From the IMG/VR virus record IMGVR_UViG_3300025112_003255, positions 1 through 24,181 of that record: a DNA stretch of 24,181 nt; one strand, 5' to 3'. Of this stretch, positions 9,820 through 21,017 are shown piece by piece. Both the position numbers and the translations under genes were made by a program. How positions within the stretch are numbered: the first letter of the stretch is position 1; each line of letters begins with the position of its first letter. The notes below the pieces were generated by a model. That model ran no database searches and was not told the origin of the DNA. It saw only the letters and a list, made by a program, of their open reading frames with translations. The stretch comes from a virus.

Positions 9820-10109
9820 TTATTTATATAGATATAGATAATACCATCTGTAGAACTCTGGATACTAGTGATTATTCTAAATCTGTTCCTCTTATAGAAA
9901 ATATTGAAAAGGTTAGACATTTGGTTGACGCTGGAAATGATGTTTCCTTTTGGACAGCCCGTGGAACTCTGTCTAAGATAGATTGTAGTGAGCTTACTTT
10001 ACGCCAACTAGAAGAGTGGGGAGTAGGTGACATTCCTGTAATTTTTGGTAAACCTTATTTTGATTTGTTTATTGATGATAGGGTTTTGAATGTAGAGGAT
10101 TGGGTGTGA
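9816..10109 (+). CDS. Mini HAD-superfamily phosphatase
   Basis: A very short (97 aa) HAD protein with the core motifs: D6-I-D8-N-T10 (motif I, nucleophile and acid/base Asp), F-W-T-A-R-G near 45-50 (motif II Thr), a Lys in G-K-P, and F-I-D-D near 85-88 (motif III/IV acidic pair). No cap domain is present, as in the small polysaccharide-biosynthesis phosphatases. In glycan clusters such enzymes dephosphorylate sugar phosphates, for example during NeuB-type or heptose pathways. Here it lies a few hundred bases upstream of a NeuB-like gene. Its start overlaps the upstream stop by ATGA and its stop overlaps the GT2 start by GTGA. The substrate is not predictable. Confidence 0.75.
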   Translation: MIIYIDIDNTICRTLDTSDYSKSVPLIENIEKVRHLVDAGNDVSFWTARGTLSKIDCSELTLRQLEEWGVGDIPVIFGKPYFDLFIDDRVLNVEDWV

Positions 10110-10843
10110 AGTTAACGGTTGTAATCCCAACTTATAATTCCATGAAATATGTTGATCAGTGCTTAGATTCTGTTTTAGCACAAACATATGAAGATATGGA
10201 AATTCTTGTATATGATAATGAAAGTAATGATGGAACTTATGAGCATCTTCTTGAACTAGAAGACGAAAGATTTATCCTAATCAGTATACCTAATGTAGAG
10301 CCTAATGGCTATAGGGAGGCTATGGATCATGTCTTTGAGAATTCAAAAAGTGATTATGTAACCTTTATATCGTCAGATGATTATGTTGATAAAGATTATA
10401 TCAAGAGAAATATGGAAGTAATTGAATCTGTAAAAGAGCCTATTATGTGCTTGCAGAGTGGCATGATTTGGGTCAACGCAGTAGGAAAATCAGTTAACGA
10501 GACAATCCACACCTATGATTCACTAGAACAATATAAAGCACTACTTATACAACATTGTCCTGTGCATAATCCAACGGTTTTTTATTACAAGAGCATCTGG
10601 CCTATTTTGAGTGAATGTAGAGAAGCACATTTTTCCAATAATGTTCAAGACATGGGGGCGGGAGACTATGATATGTGGTGCGGGTTAGCAGATCGAGGAA
10701 TCGCTGTTATACCTATCAACGCACAGTTAGGCTACTTCTACCGATGGCATGAAGAACAAGCTACTTGGAAAATCCACAGTAACCCAATAAAATACGATAA
10801 AATAATTCAAGACTACTGGAGAGACAAATGGACAAAAAATTAA
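10106..10843 (+). CDS. Family 2 (GT-A) glycosyltransferase
   Basis: Inverting GT-A enzyme of 245 aa from the GTG at 10106, which overlaps the HAD stop as GTGA; a TTG at 10100 would add two residues. The N terminus L-T-V-V-I-P-T-Y-N-S is the GT2 nucleotide-binding strand, followed by S-V-L-A-Q-T-Y and Y-D-N-E-S-N-D-G-T, both hallmarks of the family. The metal-binding acidic motif is I-S-S-D-D-Y-V-D (about 91-98). A later W-C-G-L-A-D-R-G segment, preceded by D-Y-D-M, fits the acceptor region with the catalytic base. No membrane helix is present, so it is a soluble enzyme using a lipid- or protein-linked acceptor. The end overlaps the NeuB-like gene by 16 nt. Confidence 0.88.
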   Translation: MKLTVVIPTYNSMKYVDQCLDSVLAQTYEDMEILVYDNESNDGTYEHLLELEDERFILISIPNVEPNGYREAMDHVFENSKSDYVTFISSDDYVDKDYIKRNMEVIESVKEPIMCLQSGMIWVNAVGKSVNETIHTYDSLEQYKALLIQHCPVHNPTVFYYKSIWPILSECREAHFSNNVQDMGAGDYDMWCGLADRGIAVIPINAQLGYFYRWHEEQATWKIHSNPIKYDKIIQDYWRDKWTKN

Positions 10844-12327: not shown

Positions 12328-12828
12328 ATGCAGGAAATTGTAAAAAAAAGCGGGTTACGAGTTATCCCAATGAAGGAGGGGTCTGGGAATTCTCCTAGGG
12401 TGGGGCAGGTTGTACTAGCTCACTATGAAATTTATTTTGGAGAAGGGGCTTCGACCTCTAATTATGATTATGAGAGAGACGAGTATGTGGAGGATCAGTA
12501 TGATAGTACATACGAGGAAAAACCTTTCAGCGGACCCGTTGAGTTTGTGATAGGTCAGGAAACCGCTAAAGATGACACATATACTAAAGGGGATTCTATT
12601 GCTGGATTCGACCAAGCTTTTTTGGAGATGAAAGTGGGGGATCAAGTAAAGCTATTTATTCCTGCTGCTCTTGCTTATGGAGAAGAGGGAGCGAGTAGCT
12701 TCCACGCCTTCTTTGGCTATCGGATCCCTCCGAACAGGGATTTAAATTGTATCCTTGAGCTTGTAGAAATAAAAGGAGATGAGAAAGTATCCACTAATCC
12801 CGAAAGAGGCCCAGCTTACGAAGGGTAA
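12328..12828 (+). CDS. FKBP-type peptidyl-prolyl cis-trans isomerase
   Basis: The 166-aa protein has an FKBP fold: V-G-Q-V-V-L-A-H-Y-E near 25-34, F-D-Q-A-F-L-E-M-K-V-G-D-Q near 93-105, L-F-I-P-A-A-L-A-Y-G-E-E-G near 108-120, I-P-P-N near 132-135 and C-I-L-E-L-V-E-I at the end of the domain. This order is diagnostic. An acidic Tyr/Asp insert at about 43-62 interrupts the N-terminal strands, where canonical FKBPs have a short loop. No signal peptide is seen, so it is cytoplasmic. The ATG follows directly after the NeuB stop. Prolyl isomerases are rarely part of sugar operons. It may help fold the neighbouring enzymes, or act on host or virion proteins. Confidence 0.88.
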   Translation: MQEIVKKSGLRVIPMKEGSGNSPRVGQVVLAHYEIYFGEGASTSNYDYERDEYVEDQYDSTYEEKPFSGPVEFVIGQETAKDDTYTKGDSIAGFDQAFLEMKVGDQVKLFIPAALAYGEEGASSFHAFFGYRIPPNRDLNCILELVEIKGDEKVSTNPERGPAYEG

Positions 12829-12831
12829 CTT

Positions 12832-14628
12832 ATGGTTAAGGTTTCTGATTATGTCGTTGATTTCATTAAGCGACAAGGGGTAGAAGATATATTTCTATTG
12901 CCTGGGGGAGGTTGTATTCATCTTATAGACTCCATTGGGAAGAGTGACTTGAATTTTGTTTGCAACTTGCATGAGCAAGCCTGTAGTATTGCTGCTGATG
13001 CTTATGGACAATACACAGACAATTTAGGTGTTTGCTTAGTTACAACGGGGCCTGGAGGGACGAATGCGCTAACTGGTGTTGCTGCTGGTTGGTTGGATTC
13101 TACGCCAATGTTGATTGTATCAGGTCAAGTACAGAAGAAAGATATGATTAATGAAAGAGGAACCAGACAAATCGGTTTCCAGGAACTTGACATGGTTAGG
13201 TTGGCTAAACCCATCACTAAGTACGCAGTCACGGTAAAAGACCCAGATACCATCAGGTATCACTTAGAGAGGGCGTTGTATCTAGCTCAGAACGGTCGCC
13301 CTGGCCCTGTGTGGCTTGACATACCTCTAGATGTTCAAGCGGCTGATGTAAATCCTGAGACTTTAGAGGGATACTATAAGGTCTTTTCTTTGGGAGACTG
13401 TCCCGAAGCCACCGTGAATCCTCCTATATCTAGAATAATTGAAGATTTAAATAATTCAAATAGACCTGTAATATTAGCAGGGAATGGTGTGCGTTTATCG
13501 GGAGGCATTTCGCAATTCAAAGAGCTTTGTGATGTATTACAAATTCCTGTTCTACTGACATGGAAGGCCATTGATTTCTTAGAGGAAAAACACCCATTAT
13601 TTGTAGGTAGACCTGGGGGAGTTGGACAGAGAGGAGCAAATTTCTCTCAACAAAATTCAGACTTTTTACTTAGCTTAGGAGCTAGACTAGATCACGGACA
13701 AACTGCATATCAACACAAGTACTTTGCTAGAGAAGCTACAAAAGTTATTGTTGATATTGATAAATCGGAGATTGATAAACTGGATATGGATATTAAATAT
13801 CCTATGGTTGTAGACTGCAAGGAATTTATTGAGGATTTACTGAAACACAAGGACTTGATTAACCCAGCACCTAAATGGTGGCTCTCTCAATGTAAAGGGT
13901 GGCAGAGTAAATATCCTGTTGTTCTTCCTGAACATTACGAAGAAGAGGGGTGCATTAACAATTATGCTTTTATAGATATCTTGTCAAATGTATTGCCTGA
14001 GAATGCTTTAATCATTCCAGGCAGCTCTGGGGGTTGCAGCGAGGTGACTATGCAAGCCTTTAAGATCAAGAAAGGCCAAAGGATGTTCAACAGCGAAGGT
14101 TTGGGGCCGATGGGTTTTGGTATTGCAGCCGCAATAGGAGGCTGTATTGCTTCTGGAAAGCAACCAACAGTTTGTATTGACGGTGATGGTGGATTCATTA
14201 TGAACATTCAAGAACTTGAGGTAGTGAGGAGATTGAACCTTCCTATTAAGTTCTTTGTATTAAATAATAATGGCTATGTTTCGATTCGTAATACACAAGA
14301 GACACACTTTGATAAACGCTTTGTTGCTAGTGGAGAGAAGAGTGGACTAACCCTTCCTAGTCTCCAGAAAAACGCACAGGCTTACGATATTCCCTATCGT
14401 AGACTTGAGACCACTGAGGATTTGGATGCTATAGAGGGCATCCTAGATCAAGAAGGTCCGCTTATTTGTGAGGTTATGTTACCAGAAACCCATGTGACTG
14501 CACCTAAGGCGAGTGTATATAAGAATAAGGATGGACAGTTTATGGCAAAGCCCATGGAAGATCTGGCTCCGTTCTTAGATCGAGATGAGTTTAAAGCCAA
14601 TATGTTTATTGAAACTATAAATGACTAA
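12832..14628 (+). CDS. ThDP-dependent acetolactate-synthase-like carboligase
   Basis: The 598-aa protein has the three-domain layout of the acetolactate synthase group. The N-terminal PYR domain (about 1-175) has catalytic Glu E48 in N-L-H-E-Q-A and T-G-P-G-G-T-N-A near 82-89. A central FAD/Rossmann-like domain spans about 195-335. The C-terminal PP domain (about 370-560) has the ThDP/Mg signature G-D-G-G-F near 451-455 and N-N-N-G-Y about 26 residues later. In glycan clusters this type includes YerE, which adds an acetyl branch to a 4-keto-dideoxysugar in yersiniose synthesis. The co-resident E1-type dehydrase, SDR and C-methyltransferase favour a sugar-branching carboligase over branched-chain amino acid synthesis. 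No small regulatory subunit is present. It overlaps the downstream SDR gene by 8 nt. Confidence 0.85.
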   Translation: MVKVSDYVVDFIKRQGVEDIFLLPGGGCIHLIDSIGKSDLNFVCNLHEQACSIAADAYGQYTDNLGVCLVTTGPGGTNALTGVAAGWLDSTPMLIVSGQVQKKDMINERGTRQIGFQELDMVRLAKPITKYAVTVKDPDTIRYHLERALYLAQNGRPGPVWLDIPLDVQAADVNPETLEGYYKVFSLGDCPEATVNPPISRIIEDLNNSNRPVILAGNGVRLSGGISQFKELCDVLQIPVLLTWKAIDFLEEKHPLFVGRPGGVGQRGANFSQQNSDFLLSLGARLDHGQTAYQHKYFAREATKVIVDIDKSEIDKLDMDIKYPMVVDCKEFIEDLLKHKDLINPAPKWWLSQCKGWQSKYPVVLPEHYEEEGCINNYAFIDILSNVLPENALIIPGSSGGCSEVTMQAFKIKKGQRMFNSEGLGPMGFGIAAAIGGCIASGKQPTVCIDGDGGFIMNIQELEVVRRLNLPIKFFVLNNNGYVSIRNTQETHFDKRFVASGEKSGLTLPSLQKNAQAYDIPYRRLETTEDLDAIEGILDQEGPLICEVMLPETHVTAPKASVYKNKDGQFMAKPMEDLAPFLDRDEFKANMFIETIND

Positions 14629-15520
14629 AATTTTAGTCACAGGAGGGAATGGCTTTTTTGCTCGTAGTCTGTATGAGTCGTTAAGCAATTCCTACTTCCA
14701 CCCATTGGAGGCGACAGTTGTTTCTCTTACCAGACAAGACTTGGATCTGCTTGATGCATACAAGGTAAGAGACTACCTTAAGAATAATTGGTTTGATGTA
14801 GTAATTCATACAGCAAATCATGACGCTGCTCCTACCTTTACTGATAAGAAGCGTGAAGATGTTTTAGATATAAACTTGCGTATGTTTTTTAATATAGCAT
14901 CGTGTTCAGATTATTTCGGTAAGATGTTGTATTTTGGGTCAGGCGCAGAGGCAGAACGGGATAAATGGGGGTTGGAAATGTCAGAGGACTATATTGAGAG
15001 TTGTATCCCTAATGATCCTTACGGGTATTCAAAACATATTATGAATAAACACGCTAAACTGAGTGATAACATTTATAATTTGCGGGTTTTTGGTGTGTTT
15101 GGTAAGTTTGATGATTGGAGATATAGGTTTATCCCTACCACTTGTTGCAAGGCAGTCCTAGGAATGCCAATAACCAGTAAGAGTAACGCAATGTTTGATT
15201 ATTTGTATATGAATGATTTAATAAAAATTGTTAACTGGTTTATTGTTAATACTCCTAAACAGCATTCCTATAATATTTGCACAGGAAAGACTCATACTTA
15301 TTTAAAAATAGCTAAAAAAGTAGTGAAAGCTTCTAAGAAAGAGTTGTCCATCTTTTTAGAAGATGAGAACATAAGTGTAAAGTATAGTGGAGATAACTCT
15401 CGCTTTATTAAGGAGTGCGGCGGGTTTGATTTTACTCCTATGGACGAAGCAATTTCCGAGTTATATTCTTGGTATGATAAAAATTCTTCTATTATTGTGA
15501 AGGAGGACTTCTTATATTGA
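14621..15520 (+). CDS. NAD(P)-dependent sugar epimerase/reductase (extended SDR)
   Basis: The 299-aa protein has an N-terminal Rossmann fold with I-L-V-T-G-G-N-G-F-F-A-R near 4-15, a G-x-x-G-x-x-A variant of the usual G-x-x-G-x-x-G. The catalytic Y-x-x-x-K is at Y-G-Y-S-K near residues 137-141, with the expected Ser in F-G-S-G-A-E at about 105-110. F-D-Y-L-Y-M-N-D-L matches the late extended-SDR segment. The strand with I-H-T-A-N-H replaces the usual H-L-A-A. Overlap with the ThDP enzyme gene suggests co-production, so it may reduce the ketone left after carboligation, as YerF does for the YerE product. An epimerase or 4-ketoreductase on another sugar is also possible. Confidence 0.8.
   Translation: MTKILVTGGNGFFARSLYESLSNSYFHPLEATVVSLTRQDLDLLDAYKVRDYLKNNWFDVVIHTANHDAAPTFTDKKREDVLDINLRMFFNIASCSDYFGKMLYFGSGAEAERDKWGLEMSEDYIESCIPNDPYGYSKHIMNKHAKLSDNIYNLRVFGVFGKFDDWRYRFIPTTCCKAVLGMPITSKSNAMFDYLYMNDLIKIVNWFIVNTPKQHSYNICTGKTHTYLKIAKKVVKASKKELSIFLEDENISVKYSGDNSRFIKECGGFDFTPMDEAISELYSWYDKNSSIIVKEDFLY
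14622..14639. repeat. Perfect 18-bp palindrome over the SDR start codon
   Basis: TGACTAAAATTTTAGTCA equals its own reverse complement. It contains bases 2-3 of the SDR ATG and the stop TAA of the ThDP gene. As RNA it can form a 7-bp stem with an AATT loop that would hide the start codon until a ribosome ends the upstream gene. Confidence 0.6.
15501..15506 (+). promoter_or_regulatory. Ribosome binding site that decides the TTG start of the C-methyltransferase
   Basis: AGGAGG is a full Shine-Dalgarno core placed 10 nt before the TTG at 15517. It supports the non-ATG start that overlaps the upstream stop as TTGA. Confidence 0.75.
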
Positions 15521-16641
15521 TTTGTCGAGTGTGTAATGGGGGATTGCAGACCCTTCTACAATACGAAAATATGCCGAAAGCTGCTCAGAACTTTCCTGAG
15601 TATAAGGATTTACCTACTGAGAAGGGGGTTGATTTAGAAGTCTGTGAGTGCGAAGTTTGTGGTCTTGTTCAATTGAGTAATAAACCTGTTCCCTACTACA
15701 AAGAGGTTATTAGAGCGGTAGCATTTTCTGAAGAGATGAAGCAGTTTCGAGTAACGCAGTTTACTAATTTTGTAGATAAGTACTCTCTTCTAGGAAAGAA
15801 GGTTATTGAAATTGGGTGTGGGAAGGGGGAGTTTTTACAACTAATGAAGGACGCAGGTACTGATGCATACGGAATCGAATACTCGGATGATTCGGTGCAG
15901 TTCTGTAGAGATCAGGGGCTCCAAGTTGAGAAAGACTATATTCTATACGCTCACGATCTGTTAAAGAACCAACCATTCGATTGTTTTTTTATTCTCAATT
16001 TTTTTGAGCATTTACCAGACCTTAACAGCACCCTCCAAGCCCTTCATAATAATTTGACTGACGAAGGTATAGGTATTATCGAGGTTCCTAATTTTGATAT
16101 GATTATTCAGGAAAACCTGTTCTCTGAATTTATTAATGATCATCTTTATTATTTTACTGAGGATACCTTACGAGCGGTTCTTAGTAGACATGGTTTTGAA
16201 GTTATCGAGACCTCTCAAGTGTGGCATAACTATATTATTTCTATGGTAATACGGAAGAAGCAAAGTTTAGACCTTTCTTCGTTTAAAGATCACCAGGAAA
16301 AGGTTACTAAAGAGCTTCAAGATTACATCTCTAGGTATGAGGCTGGATCTGTCGCTATCTACGGTGCAGGACACCAAGCACTAGCTGTGATCTCATTGGC
16401 AAAGCTTGGAGATAGCATAAAATATGTTTTGGATGATGCTCCATTTAAGCAAGGGAAGTACACTCCTGCGACACATATTCCCATAGTTTCATCGGAAATG
16501 TTAAGAAAGGATCCCCCCCACGCTATAATAATTATGGCTGCAAGCTATTCAGACGAAGTAGCGAGGAAGCTTGAACAAGCAAATTTGGGAATTAATTTGT
16601 CAATTTTACGAGATAACGGTCTACATATAATAGAAAAATGA
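15517..16641 (+). CDS. SAM-dependent sugar C-methyltransferase (NovU/TylCIII type)
   Basis: Probably methylates a carbon of a 4-keto nucleotide sugar. The 374-aa protein has the three modules of this family. An N-terminal zinc-binding part has C3/C6 and a later C-E-C-E-V-C-G cluster near 43-49. A SAM-binding Rossmann domain carries V-I-E-I-G-C-G-K-G-E-F near 95-105. A C-terminal Rossmann domain begins at V-A-I-Y-G-A-G-H (about 281-288). The conserved active-site stretch is present as N-D-H-L-Y-Y-F near 207-213, where most members have H-E-H-x-x-Y. The His is kept but the preceding Glu is Asp. It starts with TTG behind a strong ribosome site. It offers one-carbon branching beside the two-carbon branching of the ThDP enzyme. 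Confidence 0.88.
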   Translation: MICRVCNGGLQTLLQYENMPKAAQNFPEYKDLPTEKGVDLEVCECEVCGLVQLSNKPVPYYKEVIRAVAFSEEMKQFRVTQFTNFVDKYSLLGKKVIEIGCGKGEFLQLMKDAGTDAYGIEYSDDSVQFCRDQGLQVEKDYILYAHDLLKNQPFDCFFILNFFEHLPDLNSTLQALHNNLTDEGIGIIEVPNFDMIIQENLFSEFINDHLYYFTEDTLRAVLSRHGFEVIETSQVWHNYIISMVIRKKQSLDLSSFKDHQEKVTKELQDYISRYEAGSVAIYGAGHQALAVISLAKLGDSIKYVLDDAPFKQGKYTPATHIPIVSSEMLRKDPPHAIIIMAASYSDEVARKLEQANLGINLSILRDNGLHIIEK

Positions 16642-17036
16642 AGAAGAAAAAAGATTTCGTTTCAAATGTTACGGGCGAAGAGTGGTTTAAGCATAACTCT
16701 ATTATTTGGAAAAAAGTTATCAATCAGGTTGGTGTAGTTAAAGAGGATGAAATTCACCAAGGTAAGTATGATCAGCCTGTTACCTTAAAAAAGGGTAGTC
16801 GTATCATTATTGATGACATTAGAGGGCGCATTAAGCCCCAGTATCGCGTCATTGACGAGAGCGGTAAGATTTGGTTTGTTTCCGCATTGAACTTAGATAT
16901 ATTAGAAGATAAAAACCGAAAAGCTGATGCCTCACAGCATAAATACAAGGGAGGGGTTCGCCAGGATAATAGCGAAGCTGCTCCCTATCGCTATGCTGTT
17001 AGCAAAACAACTGAAGAGGAAATAAAAGATAAATAA
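16638..17036 (+). CDS. Conserved-looking small basic protein, unknown function
   Basis: The 132-aa soluble protein starts M-K-K-K-K-D and has no signal peptide, membrane helix or cysteine pair. The central part (about 45-90) reads as several beta strands with K-K-G-S-R-I-I-I-D-D-I and K-I-W-F-V-S-A, compatible with a small SH3-like or OB-like barrel. The last ~40 residues are polar and likely disordered, ending in charged T-E-E-E-I-K-D-K. I do not recognise a family. It overlaps the C-methyltransferase stop (ATGA) and shares a base with the radical SAM start (TAATG), so it is tightly coupled to both. Such a small unknown next to a radical SAM gene could be a partner or substrate, but no precursor-peptide features stand out. 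Confidence 0.65.
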   Translation: MKKKKDFVSNVTGEEWFKHNSIIWKKVINQVGVVKEDEIHQGKYDQPVTLKKGSRIIIDDIRGRIKPQYRVIDESGKIWFVSALNLDILEDKNRKADASQHKYKGGVRQDNSEAAPYRYAVSKTTEEEIKDK

Positions 17037-18403
17037 TGGCAAATTCGAATAGTACAATGTTTCAAAGCCCCTTAGAGGGAAATGACAAGGATCATGTTCT
17101 TCCTTGGTCTGAAAAAGAACTACAAGATCTTCTAACAGAGAAATCAGCCGACGAGCTAAAAGATATTGCTGAAGGGAAGGTCATGCAACACACCACGGTC
17201 AAAGAGGAATCTCTTAGACAAAACTGGCTCAAGTCTTATAAACCTCAGGTTTATGAGAAAATGATCAAGTATCCTCAAAAAATTGCCAACGGAGAAAGCA
17301 TTGCAATTATTCAGTTTCAGTACGATTATCTTTGTAACTTTGATTGTGAGCATTGTTGCATTGATAAGTTCTATGTTCCTAAAAGTTGGGAGAAAGAGAG
17401 TGGTCGTAGAAAGTTTGAGTTGGAGGATGTTAGACGATTAGCTGACGAATGCCATGAGTTGGGATTAGCCAACTTCGTTATTACAGGTGGAGAGCCCCTC
17501 CTTCTAAAAGAATTCGATGAATTAGTTGAAGCCATCGGACCAGACAGGTTCTATTTGGTAACAGATTCCAACGGTTGGAATCTTGATCTTGAGAAAGCGA
17601 AGCACCTTAAAGCGATTGGTGTAGATAAAGTTCAACTCAGCCTTGACGGAGCCGACGAAGAAAGCCATGATACTTTCCGTCGAGCCCCTGGATCCTGGAA
17701 GAGAGTTATGAGAGCTATTGACGCTTGCAAAGAAGCGGATCTCCATGTTATTCTTTCTACCGTTATCTGGAAGGATCGCATCTACACAGAGGAGTGGAAA
17801 CAATTCCTAGACTACGCTAAGTCTAAGGATGTGGGAACCTATGTGGTGTACGCAAAGCCTGTGGGCGCATACGAAGGTGTCACAGAGCAAATGATGACCG
17901 AGAAGGAAGGTAAGATCCTCCAGCAGTTTGAGGAAGACTATGATATTTTTACTCACATGACTCCCTCTTACGGTAGAGATATTGGTTGCATTGCTGTTAA
18001 ACGAATGGTCCCTATAACTAGATACGGAGATATCCTCCCATGTCCCTACCAGCACATTTCTTTGGGCAACTTCTTTGAAGAACCCTTGGCCGATATTATT
18101 GGACGAGGCTTAAATATCAAGTGGTTTGATCCTAGAAAGAATATGCCTTGTATTTGTGGTGTGGATAAAGGCTTTATTGAGAATGTTATCTCTGAGTCGT
18201 ATGGTGATTCAGAAGTTCCTGTTCGCTATGATAAAGTATTCACTTCGGATGATTTCATGAACCAAGAGAATATGGGGGATGTAGATAAAGAAAGTGGGTC
18301 AGGTGAGGAAGTAGAGACCTGGGCTAATGCCCCACTTATTACTCTTAAAGGCTCTAAGCTTAAGAAGTTTGATGCTATCGAAGATTCAACGAGGGGAGCT
18401 TAA
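17036..18403 (+). CDS. Radical SAM protein with C-terminal SPASM/twitch-like region
   Basis: The 455-aa enzyme is predicted to cleave S-adenosylmethionine with a [4Fe-4S] cluster. The cluster motif is C100-x3-C104-x2-C107 (C-N-F-D-C-E-H-C), followed by G-G-E-P near 148-151 for SAM binding and V-Q-L-S-L-D-G near 200-206. After the barrel, extra Cys residues occur in G-C-I-A-V near 321, L-P-C-P-Y-Q-H near 336-342 and M-P-C-I-C-G near 371-376, typical of SPASM or twitch domains that hold auxiliary clusters. About 90 N-terminal residues precede the barrel, and the tail is acidic. Neighbours are an A-type Fe-S carrier and an Fe-S sugar dehydrase, so a sugar substrate is plausible. Peptide modification is the main alternative. 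Confidence 0.88.
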   Translation: MANSNSTMFQSPLEGNDKDHVLPWSEKELQDLLTEKSADELKDIAEGKVMQHTTVKEESLRQNWLKSYKPQVYEKMIKYPQKIANGESIAIIQFQYDYLCNFDCEHCCIDKFYVPKSWEKESGRRKFELEDVRRLADECHELGLANFVITGGEPLLLKEFDELVEAIGPDRFYLVTDSNGWNLDLEKAKHLKAIGVDKVQLSLDGADEESHDTFRRAPGSWKRVMRAIDACKEADLHVILSTVIWKDRIYTEEWKQFLDYAKSKDVGTYVVYAKPVGAYEGVTEQMMTEKEGKILQQFEEDYDIFTHMTPSYGRDIGCIAVKRMVPITRYGDILPCPYQHISLGNFFEEPLADIIGRGLNIKWFDPRKNMPCICGVDKGFIENVISESYGDSEVPVRYDKVFTSDDFMNQENMGDVDKESGSGEEVETWANAPLITLKGSKLKKFDAIEDSTRGA

Positions 18404-18720
18404 TGGTTATATTCACAGAATCCGCAGTTGATTATTTAAAAGAAGCTTTGGACACAGGAGAAATCCTCCGAATGCGTGTGAAAGGAGGAGGCTGCTCTGG
18501 CTTTCAGTACGATCTGGAAGTGCAAGAAGAGGAGCAGATTGCTGACGATGATGTTCTCACAGAGGAGCATGGATTTAAAGTTGCCATAGACAGAAAAAGT
18601 TCTTTCATGTTAGATCAGACGCAAATAGATTACCAAAGTACTCTAAGCCAATCGGGGTTTAAGTTTTCAAACGCGAAGGCAACTAAAACTTGTGGTTGCG
18701 GAATTTCGTTTTCTTGCTAA
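18403..18720 (+). CDS. A-type iron-sulfur carrier protein (IscA/ErpA/HesB family)
   Basis: The 105-aa protein is of family length (about 105-120) with the three conserved cysteines: C31 in G-G-G-C-S-G-F, and C97 and C99 in T-C-G-C-G-I-S-F. An additional Cys105 ends the protein. The V-K-G-G-G-C-S-G-F-Q-Y stretch and D-x-x-S-x-x-x-L-D region are textbook. A-type carriers accept clusters from scaffold proteins and hand them to apo-enzymes. The gene shares one base with the radical SAM stop (TAATG) and lies 30 nt before the E1-type [2Fe-2S] dehydrase, so both neighbours are potential clients. No other Suf/Isc component is present, and the phage would depend on the host for sulfur mobilisation. 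Confidence 0.93.
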   Translation: MVIFTESAVDYLKEALDTGEILRMRVKGGGCSGFQYDLEVQEEEQIADDDVLTEEHGFKVAIDRKSSFMLDQTQIDYQSTLSQSGFKFSNAKATKTCGCGISFSC

Positions 18721-18734
18721 GAATCAACCTTGTC

Positions 18735-18751
18735 TGCTCTATAATAGAGCA
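18735..18751 (+). promoter_or_regulatory. Hairpin covering the start of the E1-type dehydrase gene
   Basis: TGCTCTA-TAA-TAGAGCA gives a 7-bp stem with a 3-nt loop, its last base being the A of the ATG at 18751. No Shine-Dalgarno site is visible in the 30-nt gap. The centre contains TATAAT, but no matching -35 lies at the proper distance. A translational control element, or a weak attenuator without a T run, are possible readings. Confidence 0.45.
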
Positions 18752-20070
18752 TGGTGACAAAGAGAGAAATTCTAAATCTTGTACAAGAGTATGTAACTAC
18801 TAAGCAGTCGGAGCAGACTTGGAATAAGGGTGAGGACTGGGTAGAGTACTCTGGTCCTAATTGTGACTATAAGGAGTTTGTCGCCGCAGTAGAAAATCTT
18901 CTTGATGGTTGGTTTATTTTTGGGAAAAAGGGCCGGGAATTTGAGATCGAATTCCCCCAGCATCTCGGTATGAATTATGGGGTTCTAACAAATTCAGGAA
19001 GTTCAGCTAACCTTTTAATGGTAGCTGCTACTACTTCACGAAACTTGTACAACCTTCCGAAAGGTTCAAAGTTTATTACTCCTGTTGTTTGCTTCCCTAC
19101 TACTATCAATCCAATTATCCAGCATGGGTTTGAGCCTGTTTTTGTTGATGTTGAGTTACCTAGCGTCAACCTAGATCTAGATAAGGTCGAGCAGAAACTT
19201 GAAGAAAATTCTGATATTCGGGGCATCATTTTTGCTCATGTTTTAGGCAATCCTCCTGATATGGACAGGCTTATGGGCCTAGTCGAGAAGTATGATCTTA
19301 TCTTCTTAGAAGATGCTTGTGACGCACTAGGATCTTACTATGACGGTAAGAAGCTTGGCTCCTACGGTCATATGTCTACCTGCTCTTTCTTCCCTGCTCA
19401 CCATATGACACTTGGCGAGGGAGGTTTTATTGCCACAAACAATAATAAAGCTAGAACTGCGCTTGCAAGTTTTCGAGATTGGGGTAGAGGGTGTTATTGC
19501 AATAGCATGAAGCCAGGATCTGTAACAGGGGGAAGTGCTTGCGGTAACAGATTTAAGAATTGGCTCCCAGGTATGCCTGATGCACTTTACGATCATCGGT
19601 ATGTATTCAATGAGATTGGATATAACTTAAAACCTCTAGAACTACAAGCTGCTTTAGGTCTTGAGCAACTTAAAAAGCTTCCTGAAATGGATTCCGCAAG
19701 ACGGAAAAACCACAACAGGCTGAATGAAATTTTTAAAAAGTATGAGGATTATTTCTACCTTCCTGAAGCTACGCCAAAGGCAGACCCATGTTGGTTTGCT
19801 TATCTTCTAACGCTTAAGACTGATAAGTTTACTCGTAATGATTTTGTCCAACATCTGGAGGACGCTAAGATTCAGACTAGATCTTATTTTAGTGGTAACA
19901 TTCTTGCCCACCCAGGATACCGCCTAGTTAAAGAGAATGAGACTGATTCCTTCCCTGTCGCTAATAAGGTTACTATGGATTCTTTCTTTCTTGGGACATT
20001 TATTGGTCTTACTGCTGAGAAGCTTGATTATATTGAAGAAGTGGTAGACGCTTTCTTCATTGCGCTATGA
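18751..20070 (+). CDS. rfbH: RfbH/DdhC (E1)-type [2Fe-2S] PMP-dependent sugar 3-dehydrase
   Basis: Predicted to remove the C3 hydroxyl of a 4-keto-6-deoxyhexose nucleotide. The 439-aa DegT-fold protein matches RfbH length (about 437). The PLP-binding Lys of aminotransferases is replaced by H217 (P-A-H-H-M-T-L-G-E-G-G), the hallmark of dehydrases such as E1 and ColD. Iron-sulfur ligands follow E1: C190, C248 and C250 give exactly C-X57-C-X-C, with H217 27 residues after C190 as in E1 (C193 and H220). The fourth Cys, C264, is 13 residues after C250 rather than 7, in a C-G-N-R-F context, suggesting a 6-residue loop insertion. N-S-G-S-S-A-N near 81-87 binds cofactor phosphate. The E3-type reductase partner is not present. 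It lies directly downstream of the Fe-S carrier gene. Confidence 0.92.
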   Translation: MVTKREILNLVQEYVTTKQSEQTWNKGEDWVEYSGPNCDYKEFVAAVENLLDGWFIFGKKGREFEIEFPQHLGMNYGVLTNSGSSANLLMVAATTSRNLYNLPKGSKFITPVVCFPTTINPIIQHGFEPVFVDVELPSVNLDLDKVEQKLEENSDIRGIIFAHVLGNPPDMDRLMGLVEKYDLIFLEDACDALGSYYDGKKLGSYGHMSTCSFFPAHHMTLGEGGFIATNNNKARTALASFRDWGRGCYCNSMKPGSVTGGSACGNRFKNWLPGMPDALYDHRYVFNEIGYNLKPLELQAALGLEQLKKLPEMDSARRKNHNRLNEIFKKYEDYFYLPEATPKADPCWFAYLLTLKTDKFTRNDFVQHLEDAKIQTRSYFSGNILAHPGYRLVKENETDSFPVANKVTMDSFFLGTFIGLTAEKLDYIEEVVDAFFIAL

Positions 20071-21017
20071 AGATTATATATGTTACAGGCTGTTTAGGTT
20101 TTATTGGTTCCTATTTTACTAGAAAAGCTCTTGATCGTGGGTGGTATGTTTATGGTGTTGATAAGATGACCTACGCTGCCAGCAAAAAGACTTTGGTTGA
20201 GTTTCTTAATTATGATAATTTTACTTTTCTAAAAGAGGATATCAAAGACTTAAAACATCTCTATGATTGTGATTATGTTGTTAACTTTGCTGCTGAGTCT
20301 CATGTCGATAATAGTATTGTTAATAGTGACGAGTTTATGAACAGTAATATTCTTGGGGTTAAGAATCTTCTTGATCTTGTTAGGTTTAAAAACACTAATG
20401 CAGGACTGCGCCCTGTGTTCTTTCAGATTAGTACTGATGAAGTCTATGGTGATTTAGCTTCAGGCTTTCATTTGGAATCAGATATGTTGAAGCCAAGTAA
20501 TCCTTATTCTGCATCAAAGGCAGCAGCCGATATGTTAGTAACTGCGTGGTCTAGAACATATGATCTAGACTATTTAATGCTTAGACCAACGAATAATTAC
20601 GGAATTGGGCAGTATCCTGAAAAGCTTATCCCTATTGCAGTCAAAGCACTTCAAAGAGAGAGAAAGATTAGTCTCCACAATCAAGGAACTCCAATAAGAA
20701 ATTGGCTCCACGCTGATGATACAGCAGAAGCTGCACTTCTATTGATTGAAAAAGAGGCAAGGAACGAGATTTTTAATGTCGCAGGAGGGTACGAGCAAAC
20801 TAACGCTGATACAGTCCTAAAAATCTTGAGGGCGTATATTGGAAAAGAAGTTGATTTAAGAGATTTTGTAAACTCTTCTGATGAACGGGATGGACAAGAT
20901 ATGCGTTATGCATTAGATGATTCAAAGCTTCGGTCTTTGGGATGGAGCCCACAGAAAAATTTTGATAAGGAGATTGTTGATATTGTAAAACATTATAGGG
21001 AGAATTTTATATGGTAA
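20067..21017 (+). CDS. rfbB: dTDP-glucose 4,6-dehydratase-like (RmlB/RfbB family)
   Basis: Makes 4-keto-6-deoxyglucose nucleotide from an NDP-glucose. The 316-aa extended SDR has T-G-C-L-G-F-I-G near 7-14. The catalytic T123-D124-E125 (S-T-D-E-V-Y-G) and Y147-S-A-S-K151 are complete, and L-R-P-T-N-N-Y-G and P-E-K-L-I-P follow as in RmlB. Later D-E-R-D-G-Q-D-M-R-Y-A corresponds to the family's D-R-P-G-H-D-x-R-Y-A. The acidic D-E pair is typical of dTDP-glucose enzymes, whereas CDP-glucose dehydratases (RfbG) normally carry a Lys in the corresponding motif. It is about 35-45 residues shorter than bacterial RmlB. Its ATGA overlap with the E1-type gene argues for the same pathway. UDP or CDP specificity cannot be excluded. 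Confidence 0.88.
   Translation: MKIIYVTGCLGFIGSYFTRKALDRGWYVYGVDKMTYAASKKTLVEFLNYDNFTFLKEDIKDLKHLYDCDYVVNFAAESHVDNSIVNSDEFMNSNILGVKNLLDLVRFKNTNAGLRPVFFQISTDEVYGDLASGFHLESDMLKPSNPYSASKAAADMLVTAWSRTYDLDYLMLRPTNNYGIGQYPEKLIPIAVKALQRERKISLHNQGTPIRNWLHADDTAEAALLLIEKEARNEIFNVAGGYEQTNADTVLKILRAYIGKEVDLRDFVNSSDERDGQDMRYALDDSKLRSLGWSPQKNFDKEIVDIVKHYRENFIW

Follow-up and report, generated by a model that had tools for sequence, protein, structure and literature searches.

A phage gene array pairing a YerE-type carboligase with a NeuB-cupin fusion points to a probable virus-encoded route to large branched sugars

What does an acetolactate synthase-like enzyme make when a marine phage encodes it among sugar genes? 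The window studied here, the whole 24,181-base IMG/VR virus record IMGVR_UViG_3300025112_003255, carries phage replication genes and an array in which the gene for a thiamine diphosphate (ThDP) enzyme overlaps by 8 bp a gene for a short-chain dehydrogenase/reductase (SDR). The initial annotation read this pair, together with an E1-type 3-dehydrase and a 4,6-dehydratase farther along, as a yersiniose-like system adding a two-carbon unit to a keto-sugar. Its coordinates and gene types were correct, and its statement that the ThDP enzyme lacks a regulatory subunit agrees with the flanking genes, which encode an FKBP-like protein and the SDR, neither of them an ACT-domain IlvN subunit. As judged from sequence, however, the array likely encodes a two-branch pathway to a nucleoside diphosphate (NDP)-linked, C4-branched higher-carbon sugar, in which a long 3-deoxy-2-oxo acid made by a NeuB domain would be the donor for the ThDP enzyme.

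In a sequence search of all solved structures, the best match to the ThDP enzyme was 8rph (411 bits), followed by 5ahk (277 bits) and then by plant and bacterial acetohydroxyacid synthases (AHAS; 235 bits and below). The database annotation of 5ahk is acetolactate synthase II large subunit; we regard it as the PpYerE structure to which a review (PMC12247030) refers. 8rph is JanthE, a YerE-like enzyme from Janthinobacterium sp. HH01 (PMC12188165). A 39-row tree grouped the phage enzyme with PpYerE and JanthE (support, 97/93), apart from IlvB, IlvG, IlvI, and plant AHAS. A 96-row tree agreed, with a YerE-like grouping apart from AHAS (SH-aLRT, 89). The initial annotation had suggested a phylogeny of this kind, YerE against IlvB, and placement within IlvB was not seen.

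Individual residues and motifs point the same way. The catalytic Glu48 and the GDG...NN ThDP motif are intact in the phage enzyme. The AHAS motif FDDR is replaced by DHGQ, with loss of the AHAS substrate Arg, and the QWQ region is replaced by NTQ, with loss of the AHAS Trp. The phage enzyme has an insertion (RQxGFQELD) that AHAS lacks, and it shares with JanthE a C-terminal PK..DG..PxEDL tail that includes Lys567. Mutational work on JanthE covered Lys567 and Tyr297, both kept in the phage enzyme, and Val121, Tyr268, and Pro293, which are Phe, Val, and Gly there; JanthE also has CDG where the phage ThDP motif has GDG. JanthE is the closest solved homologue and a member of the same broad clade. 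An AHAS that boosts host branched-chain amino acid synthesis, as an ordinary auxiliary metabolic gene would, is favored by the Pfam domains and by the best NCBIfam name, both of which are acetolactate synthase. The score against the AHAS large-subunit model was nevertheless 366, with a cutoff of 538, and this score, the trees, and the lost substrate residues led us to reject an AHAS/IlvB identity. With no adjoining small subunit and a gene that sits among nucleotide-sugar genes, this explanation is extremely improbable. Contamination by host IlvB was also rejected: matches in named phage records were about 31% identical or lower and were IlvB- or pyruvate oxidase-like, several of these records being bacterial contigs, and none was this enzyme. 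These results, with the acceptor genes described below, support the assignment of the phage protein, at the level of sequence, as a YerE-type carboligase in an NDP-4-keto-3,6-dideoxy-sugar pathway.

Some viral relatives of the enzyme depart from this pattern. The ThDP gene is truncated or in two or three pieces in L164, L165, L167, L173, L179, and L180. A separate viral ThDP clade (L149, L155, L159, L161, and L163) had no recognized donor or acceptor genes and has a radical S-adenosylmethionine (SAM)/SPASM gene nearby, directly upstream of the ThDP gene in L155, L159, L161, and L163.

The array also encodes a fusion of NeuB, SAF, and cupin domains. Its AlphaFold2 model (pLDDT, 91) was compared with known structures using Foldseek. 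The first part matched the NeuB/PseI family and the last part matched the d-lyxose isomerases 2y0o and 7nzq (root mean square deviation of 2.2 Å over about 170 alignment columns), which are the closest match of the cupin; sequence alignment with these two proteins covers most of the domain. The NeuB barrel, with its conserved His and Glu residues, and the SAF domain identify the protein as a NeuB family member. In the cupin, the candidate metal ligands His415, Glu420, and His454 are invariant, but most members have Gln in place of one of the two His residues in the PEHRH motif. Unlike NeuB/PseI nonulosonate synthases and d-lyxose isomerases, the phage domains are fused. An incomplete literature search found nothing that links NeuB to d-lyxose isomerase or to marine phage.

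The fusion and the ThDP enzyme are inherited together. When a single draw of 398 Pseudomonadota genomes was searched, the nine top-scoring ThDP matches fell in the same nine genomes that have a NeuB-cupin fusion (45 to 49% identity), although some of these genomes are closely related and the pairing represents fewer than nine independent events. Gene order was measured in the 22 cases where both genes share a contig or locus; in 21 of them, NeuB lies upstream of ThDP on the same strand with a gap of −8 to 812 bp, L082 being the exception. The ThDP-linked NeuB proteins form a single clade (96/90), and unlinked forms fall outside it. A small HAD gene lies upstream of NeuB in phages and is fused to an SDR in bacterial clusters, and we infer from its motifs and this context that the HAD protein may dephosphorylate the product or the substrate of NeuB. 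In the bacterial SDR-HAD fusion, the SDR domain was considered as a counterpart of the phage SDR and rejected, only the HAD part being matched in the window; homologues of the phage-type SDR were found in L039 and L040.

NeuB, HpcH/HpaI, DmpG-like, and PanB family enzymes all form 4-hydroxy-2-oxo acids. Scanning with the ThDP alignment yielded 77 viral loci that contain a ThDP open reading frame, and donor and acceptor enzymes were sought within 6 kb; because such searches start from patterns, distant relatives may have been missed. A donor enzyme was found at 55 of the 77 loci: NeuB at 41 (either cupin fused, ∼500 amino acids [aa], or cupin free, ∼350 aa), HpcH/HpaI at 9, a DmpG-like HMGL aldolase at 3, and PanB at 2. 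With near-copies removed, 57 loci remained (NeuB, 32; HpcH, 7; PanB, 2; HMGL, 2; none, 14). Bacterial relatives likewise carry NeuB-cupin, an HpcH-like protein, or HpaI with DmpF/DmpG. Among 80 viral control loci chosen via GDP-mannose dehydratase, an imperfectly matched set, there were no donor enzymes (0/80) and no ThDP genes. On the 96-row ThDP tree, donor labels were strongly clustered yet switched several times (20 changes over all labels, versus 47.7 in shuffles). Donor enzyme types are thus exchanged between ThDP clades while the product class, by family chemistry, stays constant. Since the NeuB-cupin neighbor is replaced in relatives by other enzymes that form 4-hydroxy-2-oxo acids, a longer, dedicated donor is indicated.

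Two further observations concern genes near the viral ThDP gene. A PanB-like ketopantoate hydroxymethyltransferase is encoded one to two genes after it in L122 (L122:9799-10719) and L168. A 3-dehydroquinate synthase-like protein is encoded at most two genes away, before it in L124, L130, L169, and L170 and after it in L160, L174, and L177; the L130 protein matches TIGR04425 (AroB-related sugar phosphate cyclase). The combination of this protein with HpcH or NeuB suggests a carbocyclic branch at these loci.

In the acetyl branching first proposed for this locus, the ThDP enzyme would use pyruvate, and NeuB would belong to a separate sialic acid-like pathway of the array. The enzyme types match those of the yersiniose pathway, and JanthE takes pyruvate among its donors. 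The DISCRIMINATING test bears on this point: with NeuB in a separate sialic acid-like pathway, a CMP-sugar synthetase (PF02348, CTP_transf_3) would be expected nearby. Neither the window nor 19 of the 20 viral contigs in which NeuB is linked to ThDP had PF02348; in the remaining contig it scored above the gathering cutoff. The family was matched (E < 0.001) in all eight viral contigs with NeuB-cupin but no ThDP gene, six above the gathering cutoff and two more weakly; these unlinked contigs are longer on average, though several ThDP-linked contigs exceed 100 kb. Likewise, in the bacterium G240, where NeuB-cupin is not linked to ThDP, a CMP-sugar synthetase gene lies about 700 bp from NeuB. The missing synthetase speaks against an independent sialic acid-like pathway for NeuB and, with the paired inheritance of NeuB and ThDP and the replacement of NeuB by other makers of 4-hydroxy-2-oxo acids, makes acetyl branching an unlikely account of the array. 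A second NeuB-cupin clade (∼40% identity) is found in phages L085 to L092, which have no ThDP gene and carry CMP-sugar synthetase homologues on the same contig.

The acceptor side is represented by the two enzymes that the initial annotation had placed farther along the array. In the RfbH of this phage, His replaces the pyridoxal phosphate lysine (PAHHMT), and four cysteines occupy the Fe-S positions of Fe-S-dependent E1 3-dehydrases; in phage arrays the RfbH gene adjoins that of the 4,6-dehydratase. The 4,6-dehydratase scored 83 bits against the CDP-glucose 4,6-dehydratase model TIGR02622 (cutoff, 278), and since the window dehydratase is RmlB-like, the nucleotide of the phage sugar may be dTDP or CDP. 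Glucose-1-phosphate cytidylyltransferase, CDP-glucose 4,6-dehydratase, and RfbH all have homologues in the neighborhoods of bacterial ThDP relatives, and the representatives tested exceed curated cutoffs; on viral contig L084, the complete CDP set is represented by homologues next to NeuB-cupin and ThDP. In L079, L096, and L097, the place of RfbH is taken by a DegT family protein (SHxITAGGTGG) that retains the His and lacks the four Fe-S cysteines; it may be a 3-dehydrase that does not depend on Fe-S.

The ThDP enzyme could also consume the NeuB acid while using some other ketone or aldehyde as its acceptor, with RfbH and RmlB feeding a different sugar. JanthE tolerates a broad range of acceptors in vitro, and 15 of the 77 viral ThDP loci had no recognized 3-dehydrase or 4,6-dehydratase within 6 kb. 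Given that one or both enzymes were present at the other 62 and that many bacterial relatives carry the CDP-dideoxysugar set, we regard a different acceptor as improbable.

Gene content and order, families, catalytic residues, co-inheritance, and donor enzyme replacement were observed directly; the reaction steps of the two-branch pathway are drawn from them. On family assignment and catalytic residues, the RmlB-like dehydratase and the RfbH-type 3-dehydrase would yield an NDP-4-keto-3,6-dideoxyhexose, with dTDP or CDP as the presumed nucleotide. Family chemistry and gene pairing suggest that the NeuB domain would condense phosphoenolpyruvate with an aldose to give a 3-deoxy-2-ulosonic acid, a 4-hydroxy-2-oxo acid; the aldose would perhaps come from the lyxose isomerase-like cupin, with trimming perhaps by the HAD phosphatase. 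By analogy with JanthE, YerE, and ErwE, the ThDP carboligase would decarboxylate this acid and transfer the acyl unit to the C4 ketone, giving a tertiary alcohol with a side-chain ketone that the SDR would reduce. The C-methyltransferase and the radical SAM enzyme would tailor the product, and glycosyltransferases encoded in the window would transfer the finished sugar. An aldose of n carbons would yield an acid of n+3 carbons, which loses CO2 to leave a branch of n+2. If NeuB took a pentose or a hexose, the branch would be 7 or 8 carbons long and the whole sugar would have 13 or 14 carbons.

Several observations weigh against this pathway. No recognized donor enzyme lay within 6 kb at 22 of the 77 viral ThDP loci. 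In the 24-kb window, no E3 reductase was matched (E < 1e−5, one E3 reference used) and no sugar-1-phosphate nucleotidylyltransferase was found, glucose-1-phosphate cytidylyltransferase included; the phage would therefore need these activities from its host or from genes beyond the fragment. The natural substrates of JanthE are reported to be unknown, and its use of pyruvate among other donors in vitro (PMC12188165) leaves room for an acetyl donor. Finally, the FKBP-like protein, a conserved 132-aa protein, and the radical SAM enzyme are not accounted for by the proposed steps.

Comparison with characterized systems helps to place the array. By description, YerE of the Yersinia pseudotuberculosis yersiniose A pathway is likewise a ThDP carboligase acting on an NDP-4-keto-3,6-dideoxyhexose, alongside an RfbH-type 3-dehydrase and a reductase. 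Its donor is pyruvate, however, whereas the phage has a dedicated NeuB-cupin, and the yersiniose pathway uses a CDP-glucose-type dehydratase and an E3, in contrast to the RmlB-like dehydratase and the missing E3 match of the window. On the dehydratase and the E3, the window, a 24-kb fragment, does not match the yersiniose pathway proper. According to a review (PMC12247030), 4-hydroxy-2-oxo acids are the preferred donors of ErwE (erwiniose), which does not accept pyruvate, and MMAR_2332 of the caryophyllose pathway behaves similarly. Caryophyllose itself has a C12 skeleton that includes a C6 branch (PMC7821131). By description, the donors of ErwE and MMAR_2332 belong to the class that NeuB, HpaI, DmpG, and PanB would make. 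A NeuB-made donor is not described for either enzyme in the literature covered. Thus, the YerE-type carboligase of the initial annotation stands, while its two-carbon, pyruvate-derived branch is probably wrong given the NeuB-cupin neighbor and donor replacement in relatives. The best reading is a variant form of YerE-type branching, with a NeuB-made donor, that is widespread in viruses.

The genes of the array (Table 1) all lie on one strand, with neighbors mostly abutting or overlapping. Their complete order was found again in independent viral contigs, which argues that the ThDP-SDR array is not a chance assembly. Between the window and its viral relative L002, array genes differed at proportions of 0.56 to 0.86 at synonymous sites (pS, near saturation) and 0.04 to 0.22 at nonsynonymous sites (pN); this near-saturated synonymous change with little protein change indicates purifying selection. 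A scan for promoters and terminators gave no signal above shuffles. The replication genes of the window encode a ribonucleotide reductase, a DnaB-like helicase, a MazG-like protein, and a single-strand binding protein. For the reductase, the gene of the large subunit (11-1681) lies at the edge of the contig and begins within the barrel domain, so that it is probably cut by the end of the fragment. A T4-type Gp23 capsid gene was present in 5 of 12 sampled carrier contigs, so at least those five are tailed phages.

Table 1. Genes of the sugar array and their positions in the window
Feature	Position	Strand	Domains, motifs, or model scores
Small HAD phosphatase, 97 aa	9816..10109	+	Motifs DIDNT, TARG, GKP, DD; weak TIGR01689 match (capsule-biosynthesis phosphatase)
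Family 2 glycosyltransferase (GT2)	10100..10843	+	
NeuB + SAF + d-lyxose isomerase-like cupin fusion, 499 aa	10828..12327	+	Pfam NeuB, SAF, Lyx_isomer
FKBP-like protein	12328..12828	+	PF00254
YerE/JanthE-like ThDP carboligase, 598 aa	12832..14628	+	TPP_enzyme_N, M, and C domains
SDR, 299 aa	14621..15520	+	PF01370 (Epimerase family)
SAM methyltransferase, sugar C-methyltransferase type	15517..16641	+	Pfam Methyltransf_13/23/14
Conserved 132-aa protein, directly 5′ of radical SAM gene	16638..17036	+	
Radical SAM/SPASM enzyme	17036..18403	+	PF04055 and PF13186
A-type Fe-S carrier (IscA-like)	18403..18720	+	PF01521
RfbH/E1-type NDP-4-keto-6-deoxyhexose 3-dehydrase	18751..20070	+	NF011936, 450 bits, above cutoff of 423
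NDP-glucose 4,6-dehydratase, RmlB-like	20067..21017	+	Best model TIGR01181 (dTDP-glucose 4,6-dehydratase), 293 bits, under cutoff of 365

In the SDR, the motifs TGGNGF and YGYSK are intact, with YxxxK conserved, and the nearest folds to its AlphaFold2 model (pLDDT, 91) are GDP-fucose synthase and other keto-sugar reductases; the model suggests a ketoreductase acting on the side-chain ketone. Homologues of the methyltransferase (46 to 51% identity) are encoded near the ThDP gene in bacteria, and those of the radical SAM enzyme (51 to 54%) beside it. The radical SAM enzyme is the most conserved array protein (93% to L002) and a probable late tailoring enzyme; its sequence matches in the PDB were generic (SkfB, cytosylglucuronate decarboxylase, MoaA) and indicated no substrate. 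An IscA-like gene lies directly 3′ of the radical SAM gene in other phage arrays that have the latter and are of sufficient length, and the carrier probably serves the radical SAM enzyme or RfbH. The 132-aa protein, which had no Pfam or PHROG match, is conserved together with the radical SAM enzyme in phages. The FKBP-like protein recurs in other phage arrays with a shifting position, either between NeuB and ThDP or ahead of the 132-aa protein.

On balance, we lean toward the broader view that a modular route to giant branched sugars (about 13 to 14 carbons for the NeuB type) is widespread among viruses, in which a YerE-type carboligase is combined with interchangeable donor makers that set the length and shape of the branch. 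With the same slight preference, we count among these donor makers the NeuB/lyxose isomerase fusion, plain NeuB, HpcH/HpaI, a DmpG-like aldolase, and PanB. If this is true, a NeuB-type synthase feeding a ThDP carboligase rather than a CMP-sugar synthetase would represent a new role for the NeuB family and would extend enzymatic sugar branching to a new class of donors. The neighboring gene would predict the donor of uncharacterized YerE-like enzymes, and the natural donor of JanthE could be predicted and tested. As biocatalysts, the enzymes would be candidates for making tertiary alcohols that bear polyhydroxylated side chains. For the phages themselves, it would mean that they carry entire pathways for unusually large sugars, presumably altering the host surface or the virion.

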